Shown here one piece after another: positions 3,115 through 38,539 of a DNA stretch of 64,000 nucleotides (the first letter of the stretch is position 1; each line of letters opens with the position of its first letter). The notes beneath the pieces were generated by a model, which made no database searches, was not told the origin of the DNA, and saw only the letters and a program-made list of their open reading frames with translations. Made by a program: the position numbers and the translations under genes. Source of the stretch: Prosthecobacter vanneervenii (lineage in GTDB: Bacteria > Verrucomicrobiota > Verrucomicrobiia > Verrucomicrobiales > Verrucomicrobiaceae); contig NZ_JACHIG010000005.1 in NCBI RefSeq assembly GCF_014203095.1, positions 62,001 to 126,000 of the forward strand, written 5' to 3'.

Positions 3115-5910
3115 CTACTTGGTAGCCGGAGCCTCAGGCGCTTGCGCCACTGAGGCAAGCTGCTGGAAGTACATTTCTAGCGGAGCCTTGCTCAGGTCAT
3201 AAGCGGAGTTGGATTCAGGATCACCGTTAATACCTGAGTCGAGCATCTTCAAAATGACCGCCTGTCTCGGCTCGGGATGCTCCTTCTTGACACGCTCTTT
3301 GATTGTTTCCAGGGAGACGCCAGCCTCCTCGCGCAGACCACTCATGGTCTGCGGGCAGCAAAGATCGAGCGCCACCAGCTTGGCGATGTCATGCACGCTG
3401 AGTGTTCCGGGGAAATGACGATGCTTCTCTTGTGGATCGAGTGAGGTTCTGTCCAACAGCTCCATTGCAGTGGCAAGGAAGAGGCGCAGGCGAAAGAGAT
3501 TCACAAACTGCTTCAGCCTCCTTGGATTGCGCTCCAGGGCTTCGATCACATAGCTGGCGCAAAGGAAGGCAGCCTGCCCGTCTCTCAATTTAACTTCCAC
3601 CACTGTCACGGCCGTTCGTGTTCTCTTAGCTTCCTCGGCCTTGAGCCGCTCGGCTTCATCCTGGTTTGAGGAGACCATGCGCTTGCCATCAGAGCGCGTT
3701 GTGGCAGTTGTATTTGCCGCAGGCTGTGCGCTGCCCGGTGTAGTTTCCGGTGAGAAGGCAGCGGCATTTTCCTCACCTTCCCATCCAGTGATCATTCGTA
3801 GGTACTGTTCCTGATCCTGCCCCGCCAGCCCCGGCAGATGCAAGGTGATCTGGATGAACTTTTCCAAGAACTCATGCCCAAAGCCCAGCGCCTGATGCGG
3901 TGCCAGCTTGCCATCTTTTTCATTCGGCAGCAGCAGAAAGGGCAGCAGCTTCTCATGCTTGGCCGCCACAGCGGCGGCCACCTTCTCACGGTCCATGCCC
4001 AGGACGCAGATCACCCCGGGCGGCTTGGGCGCATTTTTGCGCCGCTCATGGCCGCCACCGCTCAGCATCAGGTGCAGGCTCTGCAGCACCTCGGCTGCCT
4101 TCGGTGCCTCACAGCGGTCCAGATCATCAATAAAGACCACCACACGGTTCTGGCTCCAGAGAGGGCGTGGAGACACGCTCAGTTTCTCCGGCGCAGGAGT
4201 GCTGTAGGTGTAGAGCACTCGCCGCACCCAGCGGCAGATGCCCAGGACTACCGCCCGCGCGATGGCTCTCCACTGGTCGGGCCAGTTCGGGTCGGTGTGG
4301 CTGCGCAGGTCCGCCATGAAGCGCTCCAGCGGTCCGCTGCCAGGCGTGTAGGCACACATCAGACGCTCAAAGTCCTCGTGAAAACGGTGCAGGTCGTCCA
4401 CGCCATCCTCATGCTGATTGCGGGTGAAGACACTGACCATGTCGATCTTCAGCGGACTGCCGAAGCTGCCCACGAGGTCCTTCACAAAACCCCACAGCAG
4501 CAGGGGGATGCCCACGAGCGGCAGCTTGCTGGCCAGGAGCGTGTTGAGCTTCGACTCGGCATCCTTGGCGAAGTCCTCGCCATGACACCAAAGCCATACC
4601 AGCACTGCCAGTCCCAGCAGCCACAAGGCCAGCCGAGACAGCAGCAAAATCCTCTCTGCTGTCGAGAGGCGCTGCCAGCTCAGCGACAGCCTGCGTCGCC
4701 AGAGCCCCAGCCAGGAAAGCTTCTCTGCCATCTGCCGCTCATAGGCCACGGCAAAGGCCGCCCAGAGCGTCTTCCCGGCCTCGTGCTTCCAGGGATTAAA
4801 CCACACGGTGGGGATGCGGTCTTTCTCTTCCAAAGCAATGCGCAGATGATGGAGGAACGAGGTTTTCCCAGCGCCCCAAGGTGCCTCCACCGAGACCGTG
4901 ATAGGAGCCTCCGTCTCACCACTGGCCACAAAGGCCCTCAGCGCCTCCTTGCACTTCTCCGCCGTGTCCGTGAGCTTCGGGGCTGCGCCATCGCTAGCCA
5001 AAGAGCTGGAGATAATCGGTTCTTTGTAGATGCGCCTCAGAACGGAAGGCTCTCCAAAATCATGAACTTGAGATGAGTGCAGCTCAAATGACTCGTCCTC
5101 AAATGCAGGTTCATGCTCCGTATTTTTTGGATGACCAAGCCACCATTCGTTGAACCACTGCCGCATTTCTTGAATTGGGGGAACACCGTGCGCCAAGGCC
5201 GAGTACCAAGAAGATAACATGTCTTTTTCTTTCTGACCGCGCATGGTCTCCGGCGCGAGTAACATCGATTCACCCCCTGTTATGGAAAAGCTCCGCCAAA
5301 GAGGGGTATTTATCAAAGATGCCCCCCGTGCATCAGCACAATCCAGATCCTCACGAATCTCTTGGACCAACTGAGCACGTCTAGCTCTGGATGTGGCGGC
5401 GGCGGTAGAATAGGCATCGGCCGCGGCTGCAGCGTCTGCGGTGGCAGCGTAAGCATATGCGTAGGCGGCGGCTGCAGCTGCGGCGTCGGCGGCGGTGTAA
5501 GCGACGGCAGCGTACGCGGAGGCGGCGTACGCGGCAGCGGCGGCAGCGGCGTAAGCTGCAGCGTATGCTGCGGCGGAGGCAGCAGAAGCAGCGGAAGCAG
5601 CGGACGATGAGGCGGAAGAAGCCGAAGCGGAAGCACGTGAAACTTTACCGGCTTGCACGCCTTCAAGAGTAGCCAGAATCAGGGCGCTCAGGATGGAATG
5701 GCTGTTTTTAGTCCACCATTCAATGAGCCGATCTTGACTTTTCCAACCAGTAAACATCAGAGGCACGACACGCCAGGCCGCTCGTGCCGCAATGGCGACC
5801 TGTGCCTCACGCGGAAGAAGATTGATCTTTGACCGAACTTCCTTGTGAAAGGCATCGCGATCAAATTTTAGCGCACTGTCATCTCGAGCTTCAGAGGCCA
5901 TGCCCAACAT
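3115..5910 (-). CDS. KAP-family P-loop NTPase with Ala/Tyr-rich tract
   Basis: A 931-residue predicted KAP NTPase, a family of membrane-associated STAND-like ATPases that in bacteria includes phage-exclusion and plasmid or defence-linked proteins. Walker A is VEAPWGAGKTSF (about residues 342-352) and Walker B is VVVFIDDLDRCE (about 590-601), the KAP signature. Two hydrophobic segments (about 421-442 and 460-480) lie between them, as is typical for KAP proteins. Residues about 93-174 are almost entirely Ala with interspersed Tyr and Ser. ATG at 5910 was chosen; a TTG at 5934 and ATG at 5901 are alternatives, and none has a clear ribosome-binding site. The gene stands alone, convergent with carA and about 95 bp downstream of thyA. 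Function is inferred from the family only. Confidence 0.85.
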   Translation of the reverse strand: MLGMASEARDDSALKFDRDAFHKEVRSKINLLPREAQVAIAARAAWRVVPLMFTGWKSQDRLIEWWTKNSHSILSALILATLEGVQAGKVSRASASASSASSSAASAASAASAAAYAAAYAAAAAAAYAASAYAAVAYTAADAAAAAAAYAYAYAATADAAAAADAYSTAAATSRARRAQLVQEIREDLDCADARGASLINTPLWRSFSITGGESMLLAPETMRGQKEKDMLSSWYSALAHGVPPIQEMRQWFNEWWLGHPKNTEHEPAFEDESFELHSSQVHDFGEPSVLRRIYKEPIISSSLASDGAAPKLTDTAEKCKEALRAFVASGETEAPITVSVEAPWGAGKTSFLHHLRIALEEKDRIPTVWFNPWKHEAGKTLWAAFAVAYERQMAEKLSWLGLWRRRLSLSWQRLSTAERILLLSRLALWLLGLAVLVWLWCHGEDFAKDAESKLNTLLASKLPLVGIPLLLWGFVKDLVGSFGSPLKIDMVSVFTRNQHEDGVDDLHRFHEDFERLMCAYTPGSGPLERFMADLRSHTDPNWPDQWRAIARAVVLGICRWVRRVLYTYSTPAPEKLSVSPRPLWSQNRVVVFIDDLDRCEAPKAAEVLQSLHLMLSGGGHERRKNAPKPPGVICVLGMDREKVAAAVAAKHEKLLPFLLLPNEKDGKLAPHQALGFGHEFLEKFIQITLHLPGLAGQDQEQYLRMITGWEGEENAAAFSPETTPGSAQPAANTTATTRSDGKRMVSSNQDEAERLKAEEAKRTRTAVTVVEVKLRDGQAAFLCASYVIEALERNPRRLKQFVNLFRLRLFLATAMELLDRTSLDPQEKHRHFPGTLSVHDIAKLVALDLCCPQTMSGLREEAGVSLETIKERVKKEHPEPRQAVILKMLDSGINGDPESNSAYDLSKAPLEMYFQQLASVAQAPEAPATK
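5389..5634 (-). repeat. Low-complexity Ala/Tyr/Ser coding repeat inside KAP gene
   Basis: About 80 codons that are mostly GCx (Ala), broken by Tyr roughly every 3-8 residues and by Ser in the first part. The DNA is degenerate repeats of GCGGCGTAC and GCAGCGGA type, so it is prone to slippage and length change. The encoded segment could form a long Ala helix with a Tyr stripe. Confidence 0.75.
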
Positions 5911-6873: not shown

Positions 6874-7047
6874 AAGGAATGACGAATGAGTAAATCCTAA
6901 TGTCTAAAAAATGAGGAAGCTCGAATGATGAATTCAGCTGCCCGGAGGGCGTGCGTTTGCCGGGAGGGGTAGCGGATATGGGCCGCTGCTTCGATCTTCG
7001 TCATTCGCCATTATTTCGTCATTCGGATTTACTCATTCGTCATTTTT
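6874..7047. repeat. Dispersed repeat A, inverted pair
   Basis: The gap between thyA and the release-factor-like gene carries AATGACGAATGAGTAAATCC at 6878-6897 and its reverse complement within 6999-7047 (GGATTTACTCATTCGTCATT). The two arms enclose about 120 bp with no gene. The right arm is extended by ATTTCGTCATTC, matching the copy at 1391-1430. This is the only complete inverted pair of the family in the window. Confidence 0.7.
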
Positions 7048-7121
7048 GACCGCCGTTCCCTTAACCGCGCCCCATGCACGCACCAGTTGCAGCCCCCATC
7101 ACCCGGTCCGATACTCATTCC

Positions 7122-7528: not shown

Positions 7529-7566
7529 GAAAATGACGAATGAGAAAGTCCGAATGACGAAATAAA
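7529..7566 (+). repeat. Dispersed repeat A, copy 4
   Basis: AAAATGACGAATGAGAAAGTCCGAATGACGAAAT, the reverse complement of the 1391-1430 and 6999-7047 copies with two or three changes. It begins just after the stop codon of the release-factor-like gene. Confidence 0.7.
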
Positions 7567-7704
7567 CCCAAATCTCCAATAACGAATGGGGCTTTTGGAC
7601 GCTGCGTCTTTCTTTATCAGCGAGCGGAGGCCATCCCCGGCATTTTTTAGTTTTCATTTTTCAGTTTTCAGTGCTTGCCCCCAAAGCCCCTGCGCACACG
7701 CAAT

Positions 7705-9500: not shown

Positions 9501-9732
9501 GTATTTGGAGTGCGACTGCGCAACGAGGAACGGCCGGTCCTTCGTAGCTCAGAGAGCGGAGGAGGAAGTGGAGCTGCCGCCTTCGAGCGTCTCGTGATGC
9601 GCCTGTGGCTATGAGCCCCGCGCATGACGTGAGTCGTGTGCCTCCCGCAGGTCTTCACATTCCACGCAAACCTACCGGCCCTCAAAAGCGGTAGCTGCGT
9701 TCGTGCCTCACTCCGCGACCGCACTCCATATT
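9501..9732. repeat. Repeat C (MITE-like), copy 1
   Basis: An intergenic block after lspA with imperfect terminal inverted repeats: TTTGGAGTGCGACTGCGCAA at the left and GCGACCGCACTCCATA at the right. Inside is TTCGAGCGTCTCGTG and, near the right end, AAAGCGGTAGCTGCG. The same internal and right-end blocks occur at 35583-35785. There is no transposase, so it would be a non-autonomous element. Confidence 0.7.
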
Positions 9733-32519: not shown

Positions 32520-33869
32520 ATGCGCTCCCCTGCCCTGGCCTTTCTGCTTCTGCTGCACACCGCCGCCCTTCCTGCGGCGGAGGATGCCACCGTGATGCTC
32601 AAGGCGCTGGTGAAAGAGGTGCGCGGCGGCAAACAAGAGGCGCTGGAGCCGCTGAAAGACCTCCCCGGTGGCAAACTGGCCGCTGAGGCCGTGCTGAGCC
32701 TGATCAATGACCGCCGTGTGGGCTACGGGATGAAGCTGCGCCTGGCCGAAATCGTGGCCGAGTGGCCTGCTGGCGAGGCCCGTCAGGTGCTGGCGGAATG
32801 GCTGGCCAGGCACCCCGCCTGCGAAGACGACGCGCTGATGTTTTTCTCAGGCATCCGCCTGATGGAGGCACGGGGGTATTTCTGGAGCCTGATCACCCAG
32901 GCCAAGCCGCCGCTCTCTGCTCTCAAAGACCCTACGCGCGTGGCTCTGGCCGTGCGGGCACTGGGACCCTACCAGGACAATCCGGAGAACGTGGTGGCCC
33001 GCATCGCTGCGCTGCTGGATGCGGCCAATCCCCACGTCATCCGCGCCTGTGCCGCCGAGGCCCTGGGCGGCATGCGCAGCACCGCCGGCCTGCGCGCCCT
33101 GCTGTCCTGCCTGGGAGACGATGCCATCGGCGACTCCGCACGCGCCTCCCTTTTCCAGCTTACCGGGCAGGACTTTGGCCAGGACCTATCCAAGTGGGAC
33201 ACCTGGCTCAAGGAGCACCAGGACGGCATCCCGTGGAAGATGCTGCCGCGCTCCGAATACGCCGAATACCTGAAGCTGCAAAAGCTGCTCAAGCCGCTGG
33301 ATGACGACCCCGCCATGAACATGGCCTCCTTCTACGGCCTGGAGGTGCGTGGCAAAGGCGCGCTCTTCATCCTGGATGTCAGCGGCAGCATGAACGCCGA
33401 CGATCGCATCGGCAAGCTGCACGCGCAGATGAGCAACCTCCTGGCCGTGCTGCAGACCAAGTCCAGCAAGCTGCGCTACGGCATTCTCAGCTTTGGAGAG
33501 GATGTGGACTCGTGCTTTCCCGGGCGCGGCATCTCGGTGAACGATGACAAAAACCACAAACAGGCCGTGCAGTTTGTGGAAGGCCTGCAGGCCCGTGGCG
33601 GCACCCCCATGTGCGAGGCGCTGAACCACGCCCTGACCCGCATGCTGCCGGAGGGCGGCATCGACGCCATCTACTTTCTCAGCGACGGCCAGCCCAGCGA
33701 CGGCACCCCCGCCCAGGTGCTGGATCTGGCCCGCCGCATCCACACCCAGTTCAAGGTCCGCATCCACACCATCAGCATCGGCGAAGAGCCCGGCCCCACC
33801 CCCGGCGAGCTCTCCCTCCTGCACCAGATCGCCGATGCCTGCGAAGGCACCTTTGTGCTGCCGCCGTGA
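32520..33869 (+). CDS. Secreted VWA-domain protein with HEAT-like N-terminal half
   Basis: A 449-residue protein with a signal peptide (MRSPALAFLLLLHTAALPAA). Residues about 20-230 form alpha-helical repeats of HEAT type (for example VARIAALLDAANPHVIRACAAEALGGM, shown here as ARIAALLDAANP and ACAAEALGGM). Residues about 275-449 are a von Willebrand factor A domain with an intact MIDAS motif DVSGS, the later Thr in RGGTPMCEAL and the Asp in FLSDGQPSD. Such proteins bind metal ions and protein partners in the periplasm or on the surface. The partner is unknown. Confidence 0.88.
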   Translation: MRSPALAFLLLLHTAALPAAEDATVMLKALVKEVRGGKQEALEPLKDLPGGKLAAEAVLSLINDRRVGYGMKLRLAEIVAEWPAGEARQVLAEWLARHPACEDDALMFFSGIRLMEARGYFWSLITQAKPPLSALKDPTRVALAVRALGPYQDNPENVVARIAALLDAANPHVIRACAAEALGGMRSTAGLRALLSCLGDDAIGDSARASLFQLTGQDFGQDLSKWDTWLKEHQDGIPWKMLPRSEYAEYLKLQKLLKPLDDDPAMNMASFYGLEVRGKGALFILDVSGSMNADDRIGKLHAQMSNLLAVLQTKSSKLRYGILSFGEDVDSCFPGRGISVNDDKNHKQAVQFVEGLQARGGTPMCEALNHALTRMLPEGGIDAIYFLSDGQPSDGTPAQVLDLARRIHTQFKVRIHTISIGEEPGPTPGELSLLHQIADACEGTFVLPP

Positions 33870-33896: not shown

Positions 33897-34069
33897 AAAG
33901 TTGCCGAGTTGCCGCACCTATGCACGGCAACTTGGCAACTTTCTCCCAGCCCCCTCAAATCGACAAGCACAGGATAGCATGGCGTGGTATCTCATGGTAA
34001 ATAGAGACATCTCATTGCACTCTGAAAAGCCGATGCACGGCAACTTTCGCACCCCTGAAAGTTGCCGTG
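33897..34069. repeat. Repeat D (twin-hairpin element), copy 1
   Basis: Occupies the gap 33870-34167 before the Fic gene. Hairpin 1 (33897-33942) pairs AAAGTTGCCGAGTTGCCG with CGGCAACTTGGCAACTTT, 17 of 18 positions. Hairpin 2 (34036-34069) pairs CACGGCAACTTTC with GAAAGTTGCCGTG perfectly. About 95 bp with a GCATGGCGTGG block separates them. The same build recurs at 35841-36022 in direct orientation. Confidence 0.8.
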
Positions 34070-34167
34070 GTTTTGCGGTCGATGCCCCCTCTTAAAGCCC
34101 CGTAGAAGTCCTCCTTTTTTCTACTTTTCCAGTAGCGTCTGTTTCCATCTCCGGCTTCCCTTGCCCC

Positions 34168-35490
34168 ATGCAAACAGAGATCCAGACCCTCGAAGCCCTG
34201 CGGGATGATTGGCGGGCCCTCCAGCCACTGACGGCGGAAAACGAGGCACGCCTGTGGAAAAAGCTGCGCCTGGAGTGGAACTACCACTCCAACCACATCG
34301 AGGGCAATACGCTGACCTACGGTGAAACAGAGCTGCTCCTGCTGCATGACCGCACCCACGGCAACCACAGCCATCGCGAGTATCTGGAGATGAAAGCCCA
34401 CGATGTGGGCATCGAGCACGTGCGCACCCTCGCCGCCGACAAAGACCGCCTCATCTCCGAAGGCGACATCCGTGACCTGAACCGCATCATCCTCAAGGAG
34501 CCCTTCTGGAAACAAGCAACAACCGCAAACGGCCAGACCACTCGCAAGGAGATCATCCCCGGCGAGTACAAGACCACCCCCAACAGCGTGCTCCAGGCCA
34601 CAGGGGAGATCCTGAGCTTTGCCAGCGTGGAGGAAACACCTGCACGCATGAGCGATCTCGTGGCATGGCTGCGAGCGGAGCTGACATCCCCCACCCTGCC
34701 CGTCGCAGCATGCATCGCCAAGCTGCATCACGACTTTATCATCATTCATCCCTTTGAGGATGGAAACGGCCGTGTGGCCCGCCTGCTGGTGAACTACGTG
34801 CTCATGCGCGGCGGCTGGCTGCCCCTCATCGTCCACACCGAGGAGAAAGAAGACTACCTTACCGCACTTCGCCTGGCCGATGCCGGCGAACTCTCCGCCC
34901 TCATGACCTACCTCCAGCGCCGCCTGGAGTGGTCCATGCAGATCGGCATCAAAGCCGCCAAGGGAGAGAGCATCGAAGAGCCAAGCGATCTGGAAAAGGA
35001 AGTGGCGATCTTTGTGCGGAATCAGCAGGAAAGTAAGGACAAGGTTGTGTTTCGGTCCCAGGAGGTTTTGCGCCAGCTTTTTGATTTGGGACTTCGTGAG
35101 TTTGTTGAAAGGGTGGAGACGAAGCTCAGTAAATTAGTCCCTCTTTTCAGAGATCATCGTGTGACGATTCAACCTCATTTGCCTGCCGCTCAAGGCAATC
35201 CAGTGAAGGCCTTGGAACTCATGATTCAAGCAACTGAACATGTATCTTCATTCAGCATGCAGCATGTTTTCCTGCGTTATTTAACTAAAGCTCCCCAGCC
35301 GTTCAACGTCTCAGTTACTGCAACTATGACCTTCGATGATAGCCAATACGCACTTAATCTTGCAGGACAGGACTTAATCCGAAGGCGTTACAACAAGCCC
35401 GTCCTCCCAGACGAGGCTGAAACTCTGGCCAACAAAGCCTTGGCACATGCCTTCGCTGAGATCAAAAAACTCAGCGGTAGCACAGAATGA
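34168..35490 (+). CDS. Class II Fic-domain protein
   Basis: A 440-residue Fic-family protein, predicted to transfer AMP (or another phospho-group) to hydroxyl side chains of target proteins. The complete active-site motif HPFEDGNGRVAR is at 194-205. An N-terminal inhibitory helix motif SNHIEG (Ser41, Glu45, Gly46) fits the (S/T)xxxE(G/N) rule, so the enzyme should be self-inhibited and no separate antitoxin is expected. Residues from about 270 on have no recognised family and are encoded by DNA with visibly lower GC at third positions, suggesting a grafted or divergent target-binding domain. Direct copies of repeat D lie on both sides. Confidence 0.88.
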   Translation: MQTEIQTLEALRDDWRALQPLTAENEARLWKKLRLEWNYHSNHIEGNTLTYGETELLLLHDRTHGNHSHREYLEMKAHDVGIEHVRTLAADKDRLISEGDIRDLNRIILKEPFWKQATTANGQTTRKEIIPGEYKTTPNSVLQATGEILSFASVEETPARMSDLVAWLRAELTSPTLPVAACIAKLHHDFIIIHPFEDGNGRVARLLVNYVLMRGGWLPLIVHTEEKEDYLTALRLADAGELSALMTYLQRRLEWSMQIGIKAAKGESIEEPSDLEKEVAIFVRNQQESKDKVVFRSQEVLRQLFDLGLREFVERVETKLSKLVPLFRDHRVTIQPHLPAAQGNPVKALELMIQATEHVSSFSMQHVFLRYLTKAPQPFNVSVTATMTFDDSQYALNLAGQDLIRRRYNKPVLPDEAETLANKALAHAFAEIKKLSGSTE

Positions 35491-35582
35491 GCACTCCTCG
35501 GTGGCAACTTGCAGTGGCCCAGCAAGAACGGACTCACCAAGGCCTTCAGACAAAATCAGGTACGCCCACCACGCGCCAGCAT

Positions 35583-35785
35583 CCTGGAATGCGGTGCAGA
35601 GATGCGCGGCGCAGGCCTGCATCGGCGGCACCGCTTTCGAGCGTCTCGTGGCAGGCGTAGGTTCCCATGGCTGGCGTGCGCCGTGAGTGGTGGGGTGTTC
35701 GTTTGCCTTGAGCCCCTCGCCAAATCATCCGGCCTGCGAAAGCGGTAGCTGCGCTCGTTCCTCGCTCCGCGACCGCACTCCAAAA
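35583..35785. repeat. Repeat C (MITE-like), copy 2
   Basis: Shares TTCGAGCGTCTCGTG and the right end AAAGCGGTAGCTGCG...CGACCGCACTCCA with the copy at 9501-9732, in the same orientation; the left end (TGGAATGCGGTGCAGAGA) is a degraded inverted match of the right end. It lies in the 35491-36201 gap after the Fic gene. Confidence 0.65.
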
Positions 35786-35840
35786 CGCATAGCGCACTCG
35801 CAGGGCATGCCCCATCGCTGCCCGCCCCCTAGGCCCCCGA

Positions 35841-36022
35841 AAAGTTGCCAAGTTGCCGTGTATAGGTGCGGCAACTCGGCAACTTTCTCTTTCACGCTGG
35901 CTTGAGACTGTGCACGAGCCAGCCCCCAAAGGCATGGCGTGGCAGCAGCGCGCACCCTGTGGAAGACTTTTGGAGCCCTGAAAGCATGGACGACGGCAAC
36001 TTTTGCCTCTCAAAAAGTTGCC
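35841..36022. repeat. Repeat D (twin-hairpin element), copy 2
   Basis: Hairpin 1 (35841-35886) pairs AAAGTTGCCAAGTTGCCG with CGGCAACTCGGCAACTTT and has the same 46-nt length as copy 1. Hairpin 2 (35995-36022) pairs GGCAACTTTT with AAAAGTTGCC. The spacer again contains GCATGGCGTGG. The remaining 36023-36201 stretch holds no gene. Confidence 0.8.
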
Positions 36023-36201
36023 ACAGTTTCCACGCCTGAATGCGGGCAAACGGCCCCGGCTTCGCATGCGCAGTCTCGACCTCAGCGCCGCGCCTACGTG
36101 CGGCCTTGCCATTCCATCGCAGGATTCTTTTCGTTTTTTGAGTGAGCGCTTTTCACTTTTTCACTGTCTCTTTCCACCGCCTGCACTACTCTGCCCCCTG
36201 T

Positions 36202-36366
36202 ATGAAAATCTTCGCCTCCTTCCTCGCTGTCGTCGTTTTCTCCATCACCGCCTGCCGTGGCAGCGGCGGCCCCATGACCCGTGCCGGACGTGGCGTGGAC
36301 CACGCCTTTGAAAAGACGGGCGAAGGCATCGCCAAAGTCGGTCGCAAGATCGAGCACACTTTCTGA
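36202..36366 (+). CDS. Small entericidin-like lipoprotein
   Basis: A 54-residue predicted lipoprotein: MKIFASFLAVVVFSITAC gives a signal peptide with lipobox ITAC and mature Cys18, followed by a short polar helix (GRGVDHAFEKTGEGIAKVGR). Length and layout resemble entericidin-type lipoproteins, which are tiny and often linked to membrane stress or stationary phase. The stop codon overlaps the miaA start (TGATG), so the two are translationally coupled. Family assignment is tentative. Confidence 0.7.
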   Translation: MKIFASFLAVVVFSITACRGSGGPMTRAGRGVDHAFEKTGEGIAKVGRKIEHTF

Positions 36367-37328
36367 TGCCCGGCCTCCCGGGCACAGCCATGCTCCCAGA
36401 CAGCACCTTCTTCATCACCGGGCCCACGGCCTCGGGAAAGACGGCGCTTGCCATCGCCCTGGCGCAGCAGGTGGGCGGGGAGATCGTGAATGCAGATGCC
36501 TTCCAGCTCTACGCCGGGATGGACCTCCTCACGGCCAAGCCCTCCGCCGCCGAGCTGGCCAGCGTGCCGCACCATCTCTACGGCGTGCTGCCTCTCTCCG
36601 AGTCGTGCGATGCCGCGCGCTACCATGCGCTGGCAGTCCCTGTCATTCAGGAAATCGCCGCGCGTGGCCGCGTGCCCATCGTGGTGGGCGGGTCTGGGCT
36701 GTACATCAAGGCGCTCACCCACGGCCTCTCGCCCCTGCCTGCGGCGTCTCCGCAGCTTCGCGCCCAGTTTCAGCACCTCTCCCCCGGAGAAAAGATCGTG
36801 TGGCTGCTGCAGCGGGACCCCGAGGCCGCCACCACCGTGAATCTGCGCAATCCCCGCTACGTGGAGCGCGCACTGGAGATCTGCCTGCTCTCCGGCCGCC
36901 CGCAGTCCGGCCTGCGCCGCTCCTTTGAGCAGGCCGAGCCGGAGGTGAATGGCATCATCCTCCAGTGGGACCGCGAGACGCTCTACCGCCGCATCAATCA
37001 GCGCACGCTGGACATGTTTGCAGCCGGGCTGGTGGCCGAGGTGGCCGCGCTGGGACCGCTCTCCCCCACGGCAGAAAAGGCCATCGGCGTGCGCGAGGTG
37101 CGCGCCCATCTGGCCGGGCAGACCACGCTGCCAGACACCATCTCCGCCATCCAGCAGGCCACCCGCCACTACGCCAAGCGCCAGATCACCTGGTTCCGCC
37201 GCGAACGCTGCTTCCAAACGATTTGCCTCGATTCCCTTCCCACGGCACAGTGCGTGCTCCCCCATCTCCTCGATCTCTTTCCATGCCTCCGCCCGTCCAG
37301 CCAGTCCGCCCCGTCTTCGTCAACCTAG
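36366..37328 (+). CDS. miaA: tRNA dimethylallyltransferase
   Basis: Adds a dimethylallyl group to A37 of tRNAs reading UNN codons. The 320-residue product has the P-loop FITGPTASGKTALA (about 16-29), the DAFQLYAGMDLLTAKP substrate region, and VGGSGLYIKALTHGL near 112-126, ending with the HYAKRQITWFRRE block. The start at 36366 overlaps the upstream stop; an in-frame ATG at 36390 is also possible. The 3' end overlaps aroB by 46 bp in another frame. Confidence 0.95.
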   Translation: MPGLPGTAMLPDSTFFITGPTASGKTALAIALAQQVGGEIVNADAFQLYAGMDLLTAKPSAAELASVPHHLYGVLPLSESCDAARYHALAVPVIQEIAARGRVPIVVGGSGLYIKALTHGLSPLPAASPQLRAQFQHLSPGEKIVWLLQRDPEAATTVNLRNPRYVERALEICLLSGRPQSGLRRSFEQAEPEVNGIILQWDRETLYRRINQRTLDMFAAGLVAEVAALGPLSPTAEKAIGVREVRAHLAGQTTLPDTISAIQQATRHYAKRQITWFRRERCFQTICLDSLPTAQCVLPHLLDLFPCLRPSSQSAPSSST

Positions 37329-38383: not shown

Positions 38384-38406
38384 CGAGCCGGATGGGGTGG
38401 CCGCCT

Positions 38407-38465
38407 CAGTGGTCAGTGGTCAGTGGTCAGTGGTCAGTGGTCAGTGGTCAGTGGTCAGTGGTCAG
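38407..38465. repeat. Tandem 7-bp repeat (CAGTGGT, 8 copies)
   Basis: Eight perfect head-to-tail copies of CAGTGGT followed by a partial CAG, just after aroB. Perfect copies of a short unit in non-coding DNA suggest slippage; copy number is likely variable between strains. Confidence 0.9.
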
Positions 38466-38539
38466 GGCTTGGCCTGAGGTGCGCGGGGGAGGCGCAAAGC
38501 ACCTGTCCACACTTCGGCCTCCGGAGCGCCAAGGGCGCG

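Follow-up and report, generated by a model that had tools for sequence, protein, structure and literature searches.

Hairpin repeats around a fic gene in Prosthecobacter vanneervenii as probable orphan origin-like sites of small integrated elements

The replicon of the IncQ plasmid RSF1010 combines the RepA helicase, a primase, iterons and ssi hairpins. Integron attC sites are marked by the core GTTRRRY / RYYYAAC, and P4-type satellites are integrated elements with a primase-helicase function and cis replication sites. For P4 itself, the alpha protein and its ori site have been described (PMC6092414). According to the same source, phage-inducible chromosomal islands carry a module of int, pri, rep and ori, in which the origin lies immediately 3' of the initiator gene and contains two sets of iterons (PMC6092414). 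A Vibrio satellite has iterons that are bound by its own replication protein (PMC7145576). Further, REP/RAYT repeats are short, often clustered intergenic palindromes with GTAG or CGTC tags and have been reported in a verrucomicrobium (PMC3733652).

The window considered here is a stretch of 64,000 nucleotides of Prosthecobacter vanneervenii, in which two copies of a hairpin-bearing repeat (repeat D) lie on either side of a fic gene. With a probability of roughly 0.7, these copies are orphan origin-like sites of a family of small integrated elements, standing around a captured fic gene. Sites of the same kind occur behind genes for AAA_25 proteins, and it is these AAA_25 loci that can be compared with the described systems. 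Like phage-inducible islands, they show a primase-type gene followed by the adjacent gene of a candidate initiator, a site of repeated words directly 3' of the latter, accessory genes and, in some elements, a tyrosine recombinase (integrase) gene upstream (G008, G028 and G039; G numbers denote genomes) or an attachment site (G008, G028, G056 and G232). Unlike in those islands, the candidate initiator is an AAA_25 protein, the site contains a long palindrome built from doubled words, the few element genes scanned gave no sign of phage induction or packaging, and the copies in the window are orphans without replication genes beside the pair. The loci resemble P4-type satellites in being integrated elements with a primase-type function and candidate cis replication sites, but their primase-type and AAA_25 genes are separate and the anatomy of the site differs.

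An ATPase, a primase, iterons and paired hairpins also recall RSF1010, whereas the present case is a chromosomal element in which the hairpin words are the iteron words. As in the REP/RAYT repeats, the site is a short intergenic palindrome that is often clustered; unlike there, the window hairpins have neither GTAG nor CGTC at their foot, the stems measure 17-18 bp and the copy number is low. The Y1_Tnp transposase family is found in 53 of 56 genomes, with or without hairpins (hairpins in 14/56), and at the level of presence per genome no link between the two was seen. No account of this hairpin site was recognised in the literature covered; most subscription journals lie outside that coverage and a description may be published.

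The features of the locus, in window coordinates, are as follows.

32520 to 33869, plus strand: gene of a VWA-domain protein, the left boundary of the fic site in relatives
33897 to 33942, no strand assigned: left unit, hairpin 1, with an 18-bp stem, AAAGTTGCC-n-AGTTGCC words, a 10-nt loop and inverted words
33976 to 33997, plus strand: left unit, spacer block with GCATGGCGTGGTATCTCATGG, including the GCATGGCGTGG block at 33977-33987
about 34037 to 34067, no strand assigned: left unit, hairpin 2, inverted GGCAACTTT / AAAGTTGCC
34168 to 35490, plus strand: fic, 440 aa, with the HPFEDGNGRVARL motif; matches to Pfam Fic (7.5e-15), PADLOC PDC-S04 (2e-28) and SoFic (2e-20)
35577 to 35788, no strand assigned: copy of repeat C, a dispersed repeat, between fic and the right unit
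35841 to 35886, no strand assigned: right unit, hairpin 1, with an 18-bp stem and a 10-nt loop
35931 to 35942, plus strand: right unit, spacer block GGCATGGCGTGG, including the GCATGGCGTGG block at 35932-35942
about 35993 to 36024, no strand assigned: right unit, hairpin 2, with a 10-bp stem
36366 to 37328, plus strand: gene that we take to be miaA, the right boundary of the fic site in relatives

The initial annotation had described two repeat D copies flanking a Fic gene, with a repeat C copy inside, and this layout is borne out: hairpin 1, spacer block and hairpin 2 are found at both places, in identical left-to-right order. Its statement that the copies share 46-nt first hairpins holds for the inverted comparison, in which 45 of 46 bases (98%) match once one hairpin is reverse-complemented, and fails in direct register, where identity is 81% over 52 nt. 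Besides both hairpins, comparison of the two units revealed no long common stretch. The left hairpin 1 matches hairpin model R1 at 1.7e-14, being itself one of the ten hairpins from which the model was built. The left spacer block (33976-33997) probably consists of degenerate phased words; by eye, G002 has TGGCAATCCATGGTATTTCATGG at the corresponding position and relatives have similar sequence there, and the window's repeat D spacers retain the words in degenerate form only. Stretches of 180 nt with at least five GGCAAC/GTTGCC words occur at just two places in the window, which are both D copies. The GGCATGGCGTGG block is weak evidence on its own, with 24 matches at up to two mismatches against 14 expected, a number reached in 2 of 100 shuffles. 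Rfam at gathering thresholds recognises two tRNAs in the window and nothing more.

Exact searches of the 6.66-Mb genome returned no other complete D copy, and the pattern of AAAGTTGCC, 10 to 30 nt and GGCAACTT was found nowhere else in the whole genome; a single match resembling the second hairpin lies at C9:341. Exact repeat searches overlooked hairpins with different words, which were recovered by a covariance model built from ten hairpins and then refined on 71 matches. In this genome the model gives 24 matches over both strands, corresponding to about 12 sites. An even spread of copies between genes throughout the genome, which the initial annotation had named as the outcome contrary to its proposal, is not what is seen, since 9 of the 11 listed sites fall in four clusters of two or three.

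Hairpin matches have been obtained in 14 of 56 genomes, the window's genome included. The full site comprises a palindrome, made of doubled GTTKCC words around a TAG-containing loop, and additional GGMAAC words that are often spaced about 11 nt; the usual hairpin word is GTTGCC or GTTTCC. The stems covary, with 10 of 17 pairs altered on both sides and 93.4% of cells paired compared with at most 49.4% in slid controls, in an alignment of 150 of the 160 matches that was fitted to the structure and holds most palindromes on both strands. Word similarity among hairpins of one locus averages 0.81 versus 0.76 in label shuffles (0 of 5000 reached it; 80 hairpins compared), and 48 of 70 hairpins have their best-matching partner within their own locus. 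In the window's genome, the similarity is 0.958 versus 0.719; it is barely raised in G012 (0.844 versus 0.831) and not raised in G018 and G021 (0.806 versus 0.816 and 0.759 versus 0.769, respectively). Within G018, locus L057 (9892-10634, contig C19) has six hairpins within about 750 nt whose words are concentric (A B C C' B' A'), and at L100 (5087-5975, C14) two hairpin pairs with unlike words are interleaved rather than nested around a DMP19 gene. The word CGGCAACT is tandemly expanded to about seven copies at a hairpin edge in L066 of G001 (5652-5710).

By its position and anatomy, the site behind AAA_25 genes is most likely the replication origin of integrated elements. Among the 17 AAA_25 genes of the 56 genomes, the model places a hairpin 0-33 nt 3' of the stop codon of 12; three further genes have one by eye, two of these degenerate, and two have none. 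Hairpins and AAA_25 genes are each found in 14 genomes and co-occur in 12, while G016 and G031 have hairpins and no AAA_25 gene that was found. AAA_25 genes without the site are those of G012 (C65), G033 and G101. Most sites in the window's genome are orphans, with 1 of the 11 listed adjoining an AAA_25 gene. An independent sample of 336 genomes of the order yielded AAA_25 matches in 26, of which 12 loci were new: one from the same genus (G101), two from other genera of the same family (G056, G107) and nine from other families. The site is present near the AAA_25 stop in 11 of these 12, all eleven belonging to other genera (nine by model, two by eye as palindrome plus words), and was not found near the stop in G101. 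The nine model matches have E-values of 9e-7 to 0.03; seven lie 2-13 nt from the stop, and two at 126-127 nt with words preceding the hairpin.

The 250 nt behind the AAA_25 stop contain 3-13 words in 26 of 29 loci, compared with a control mean of 0.65 that is inflated because control windows were drawn from the same loci and at times overlap sites. Direct GGAAAC words stand behind the hairpin. Word spacing is nearly alike in four Prosthecobacter loci (7-8, 19-20, 11-12, 11, 19-32 and 10-12), which show two word groups at 10-12 nt, and differs from these in G039 and most loci of other genera. A primase-type gene, recognised by similarity or Pfam, lies upstream of 14 of the 17 AAA_25 genes; for the others it lies beyond the stretch in view (G001, G002 C59) or is unrecognised (G039). 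Primase similarity was detected upstream at 6 of the 12 new loci, where some contigs end close by. Five primase-type proteins were scanned for domains, giving Zn_ribbon_DnaG in two, Toprim_2 in two, once above and once below the cut-off, and no domain match for the protein of G018.

The AAA_25 proteins of G008 and G028 have a C-terminal winged helix; that of G018 gave no winged-helix match at E 0.01, and searching PDB sequences with the alignment of AAA_25 proteins gave no match. Across 26 loci with sites (7 GGCAAC, 19 GGAAAC), the top alignment column has N or H in 7/7 GGCAAC loci and 0/19 GGAAAC loci. In G000 this column is the N of MDKNKGTISKWA, in a C-terminal motif at position 321 of the stretch used; G000 is of the GGCAAC type, whereas G018, of the GGAAAC type, has P. 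The correlation between residue and word, found after the fact and among related rows that are not independent, is strong but not final, because its mutual information is attained in 4 of 500 shuffles of the labels and G012's word was called by 4 to 3. The tree requires three word changes, two of which well supported branches make unavoidable, and G012 (H) and G027 (P), which are sisters, differ at the top column.

Some elements of this family sit in tRNA genes. The modules of G008 and G028 are each flanked by perfect direct repeats (37 and 31 bp) of the tRNA-Lys 3' end, spaced about 8.1-8.2 kb; the hairpin lies inside the element, about 4 kb from the repeats on either side. Seven further tRNA loci were tested, and two repeats, of tRNA-Met in G056 and tRNA-His in G232 (56 and 29 bp), enclose the AAA_25 gene and its site. 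A 23-bp repeat in G177 encloses a shortened AAA_25 gene, a 26-bp repeat in G039 does not enclose the AAA_25 gene, and the other three loci have no repeat above chance. As the AAA_25 gene and the site lie together between tRNA direct repeats in four genomes, the site is not the attachment site. In G008 and G028, the tRNA-Lys elements both have genes for a PIN-domain protein and an IrrE/ArdC-like metallopeptidase (L119 4214-5584, L125 6373-7727).

At the window site, the gene order EF-Tu, VWA, (fic), miaA and aroB is retained in relatives that show the whole stretch. Intact fic is found in G000, G002, G021 and G027 (70-78% identity), and fic has been lost with a C-terminal scar left behind in G029, G001, G030 and G012. 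The scar in G012 aligns with a score of 60, while 1000 shuffles score no higher than 42, and by eye those of G029 and G001 begin at an identical point past the fic leader. Hairpins and fic, or its scar, are jointly present between VWA and miaA in 8/8 genomes (in G021 and G030 the flanks are on separate contigs), and five outgroups in which both flanks could be seen (G004, G017, G032, G008 and G011) have neither hairpin nor fic there; G013 and G018, with hairpins elsewhere and no VWA beside miaA in view, were left out of these counts. Such co-occurrence (8/8 versus 0/5) suggests that hairpins and fic arrived together, in keeping with the capture of the gene that the initial annotation had offered as one option. 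Its other option, excision of fic by recombination between the copies, does not agree with the relatives: the four genomes that lost fic keep hairpins on either side of the scar, which points to loss by internal deletion, and a genome with a single hairpin and no fic, proposed as a check, is absent among the 13 that could be judged (eight with hairpins, five outgroups without).

For each of five relatives, the left spacer alignment scores above all 300 shuffles, and the left site is therefore the same site across relatives. On the right, six spacers were compared with that of the window's genome, and G012 aligned clearly and G002 marginally above shuffles. The words on both sides of fic are AAAGTTGCC in the window's genome and mostly GAGTTGCC in relatives, which suggests a concerted change of words on the two sides, most simply by gene conversion; because the right-hand spacers align weakly between species, this suggestion rests mainly on the left site. 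Nine queries for primase, AAA_25 and integrase gave no match at E 1e-4, either in the window or around miaA in relatives.

Class II Fic proteins are defined by the Fic core motif together with an N-terminal inhibitory motif. The window Fic translation has the core motif and an N-terminal SNHIEG inhibitory motif, which places it in class II as the initial annotation had it, and the gene is a candidate defence gene by its resemblance to phage-defence genes. Other genes between hairpin pairs include a pentapeptide-TIR gene and a DMP19 gene in G018, a NOV_C gene in G029 (PADLOC PDC-S36 match, 1e-100), PDC-M31A/B in G001, HNH genes and an LRR-Roc-COR-TIR gene in G027. PADLOC matches at 0.001 or better were obtained for 8 of 10 hand-picked proteins; twelve other proteins in brackets or beside sites had no Pfam match above the cut-off, and several hairpin pairs enclose no clear gene. 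A hotspot between a presumably Vsr-like gene and the primase-AAA_25 module is common to L103, L108, L109, L111 and L098/L059, and its candidate defence genes differ by species.

In the favoured reading, each repeat D copy would be a solo cis-acting site derived from small integrated elements of Verrucomicrobiales, in which the AAA_25 protein may bind the site words through its C-terminal winged helix. Two such sites of the GGCAAC type would bracket fic in the window. The hairpin pair and fic may have entered the VWA-miaA interval jointly, in the common ancestor of a Prosthecobacter subclade, with the replication genes either lost afterwards or never having arrived. Since then, the two hairpins would have been kept matched, probably by gene conversion, and fic would now and then have been lost through internal deletion. 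This reading connects an odd intergenic hairpin with one family of integrated elements across several Verrucomicrobiales genera, with a proposed initiator, a proposed binding word and a residue that tracks the word. Orphan origin pairs around candidate defence genes may be relics, mobilisable units or decoys. We consider it unlikely that the paired orphan origins are functional, in that a resident AAA_25 protein would bind them and amplify or mobilise the defence gene in trans, or that they would serve as decoys titrating incoming initiators. If true, origin pairs would be a way of carrying defence genes, or themselves a defence.

The hairpins might instead be integron-like cassette ends or recombination sites, with a recombinase acting on the folded hairpin and moving the bracketed gene. 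Pairs that flank accessory genes at several loci, the PADLOC matches of the picked proteins, the covarying stems and the words shared beyond chance within loci would all be compatible with such cassettes, which are nevertheless improbable in view of the tRNA-Lys repeats: these are the attachment repeats in G008 and G028, and the hairpin, internal to the element, is not the site of its tyrosine recombinase. Moreover, the usual hairpin word does not correspond to the attC core, at the window site species retain the hairpins even where fic is decaying in place, no empty one-hairpin site was found among the genomes judged, and nested and interleaved pairs fit poorly with simple cassettes. The integron idea had been prompted by GTTAGGC words near some hairpins and failed to hold up.

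A nature as intergenic terminators, or as REP-like repeats that are unlinked to mobile elements and kept alike by local gene conversion, is quite doubtful for the hairpins. Some hairpins do have A and T tails, the left hairpin 1 begins 27 nt past the VWA stop and others lie just past AAA_25 stops, but the GG-type hairpins have no T tails, and the conserved loop and doubled words, the further words beside the hairpin, the tie to one gene family across several genera and the residue-word correlation argue against this view. Hairpins with A and T tails may still act as terminators. That homologous recombination between the two copies could excise or invert fic is favoured by the inverted match of 98% over 46 nt, yet it is very improbable, because the direct-register identity is low (81% over 52 nt), the minus/plus loop orientation is the same in G000, G001, G002, G012 and G029, and the fic losses resemble internal deletions.

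Other repeats and distant hairpins have also been observed. Repeat C is dispersed and consists of two modules; its part at 35721-35782 matches 9667-9728 at 85%, and a query containing it gave 74 genome matches, a total that includes the query and a few hits to its hairpin portion. Stretches related to repeat C are also found inside hairpin pairs or next to them in L058, L102, L105 and L108. A pattern scan of GTDB yielded three stretches, from one Prosthecobacter MAG and two Acidobacteria MAGs, the latter with exact GTTGCC double-word hairpins (L116 1603-1652, L117 303-359); reading the ORF lists of these two loci (8 kb and 3 kb) by eye, no AAA_25 gene was noticed. Within the window, a second, AT-rich repeat (AATGACGAATGAG) occurs in direct and inverted copies at 1383-1433, 6878-6933, 7001-7051 and 7532-7587, and a tandem TCAGTGG repeat with a seven-base unit lies at 38406-38475, downstream of the gene read as aroB.
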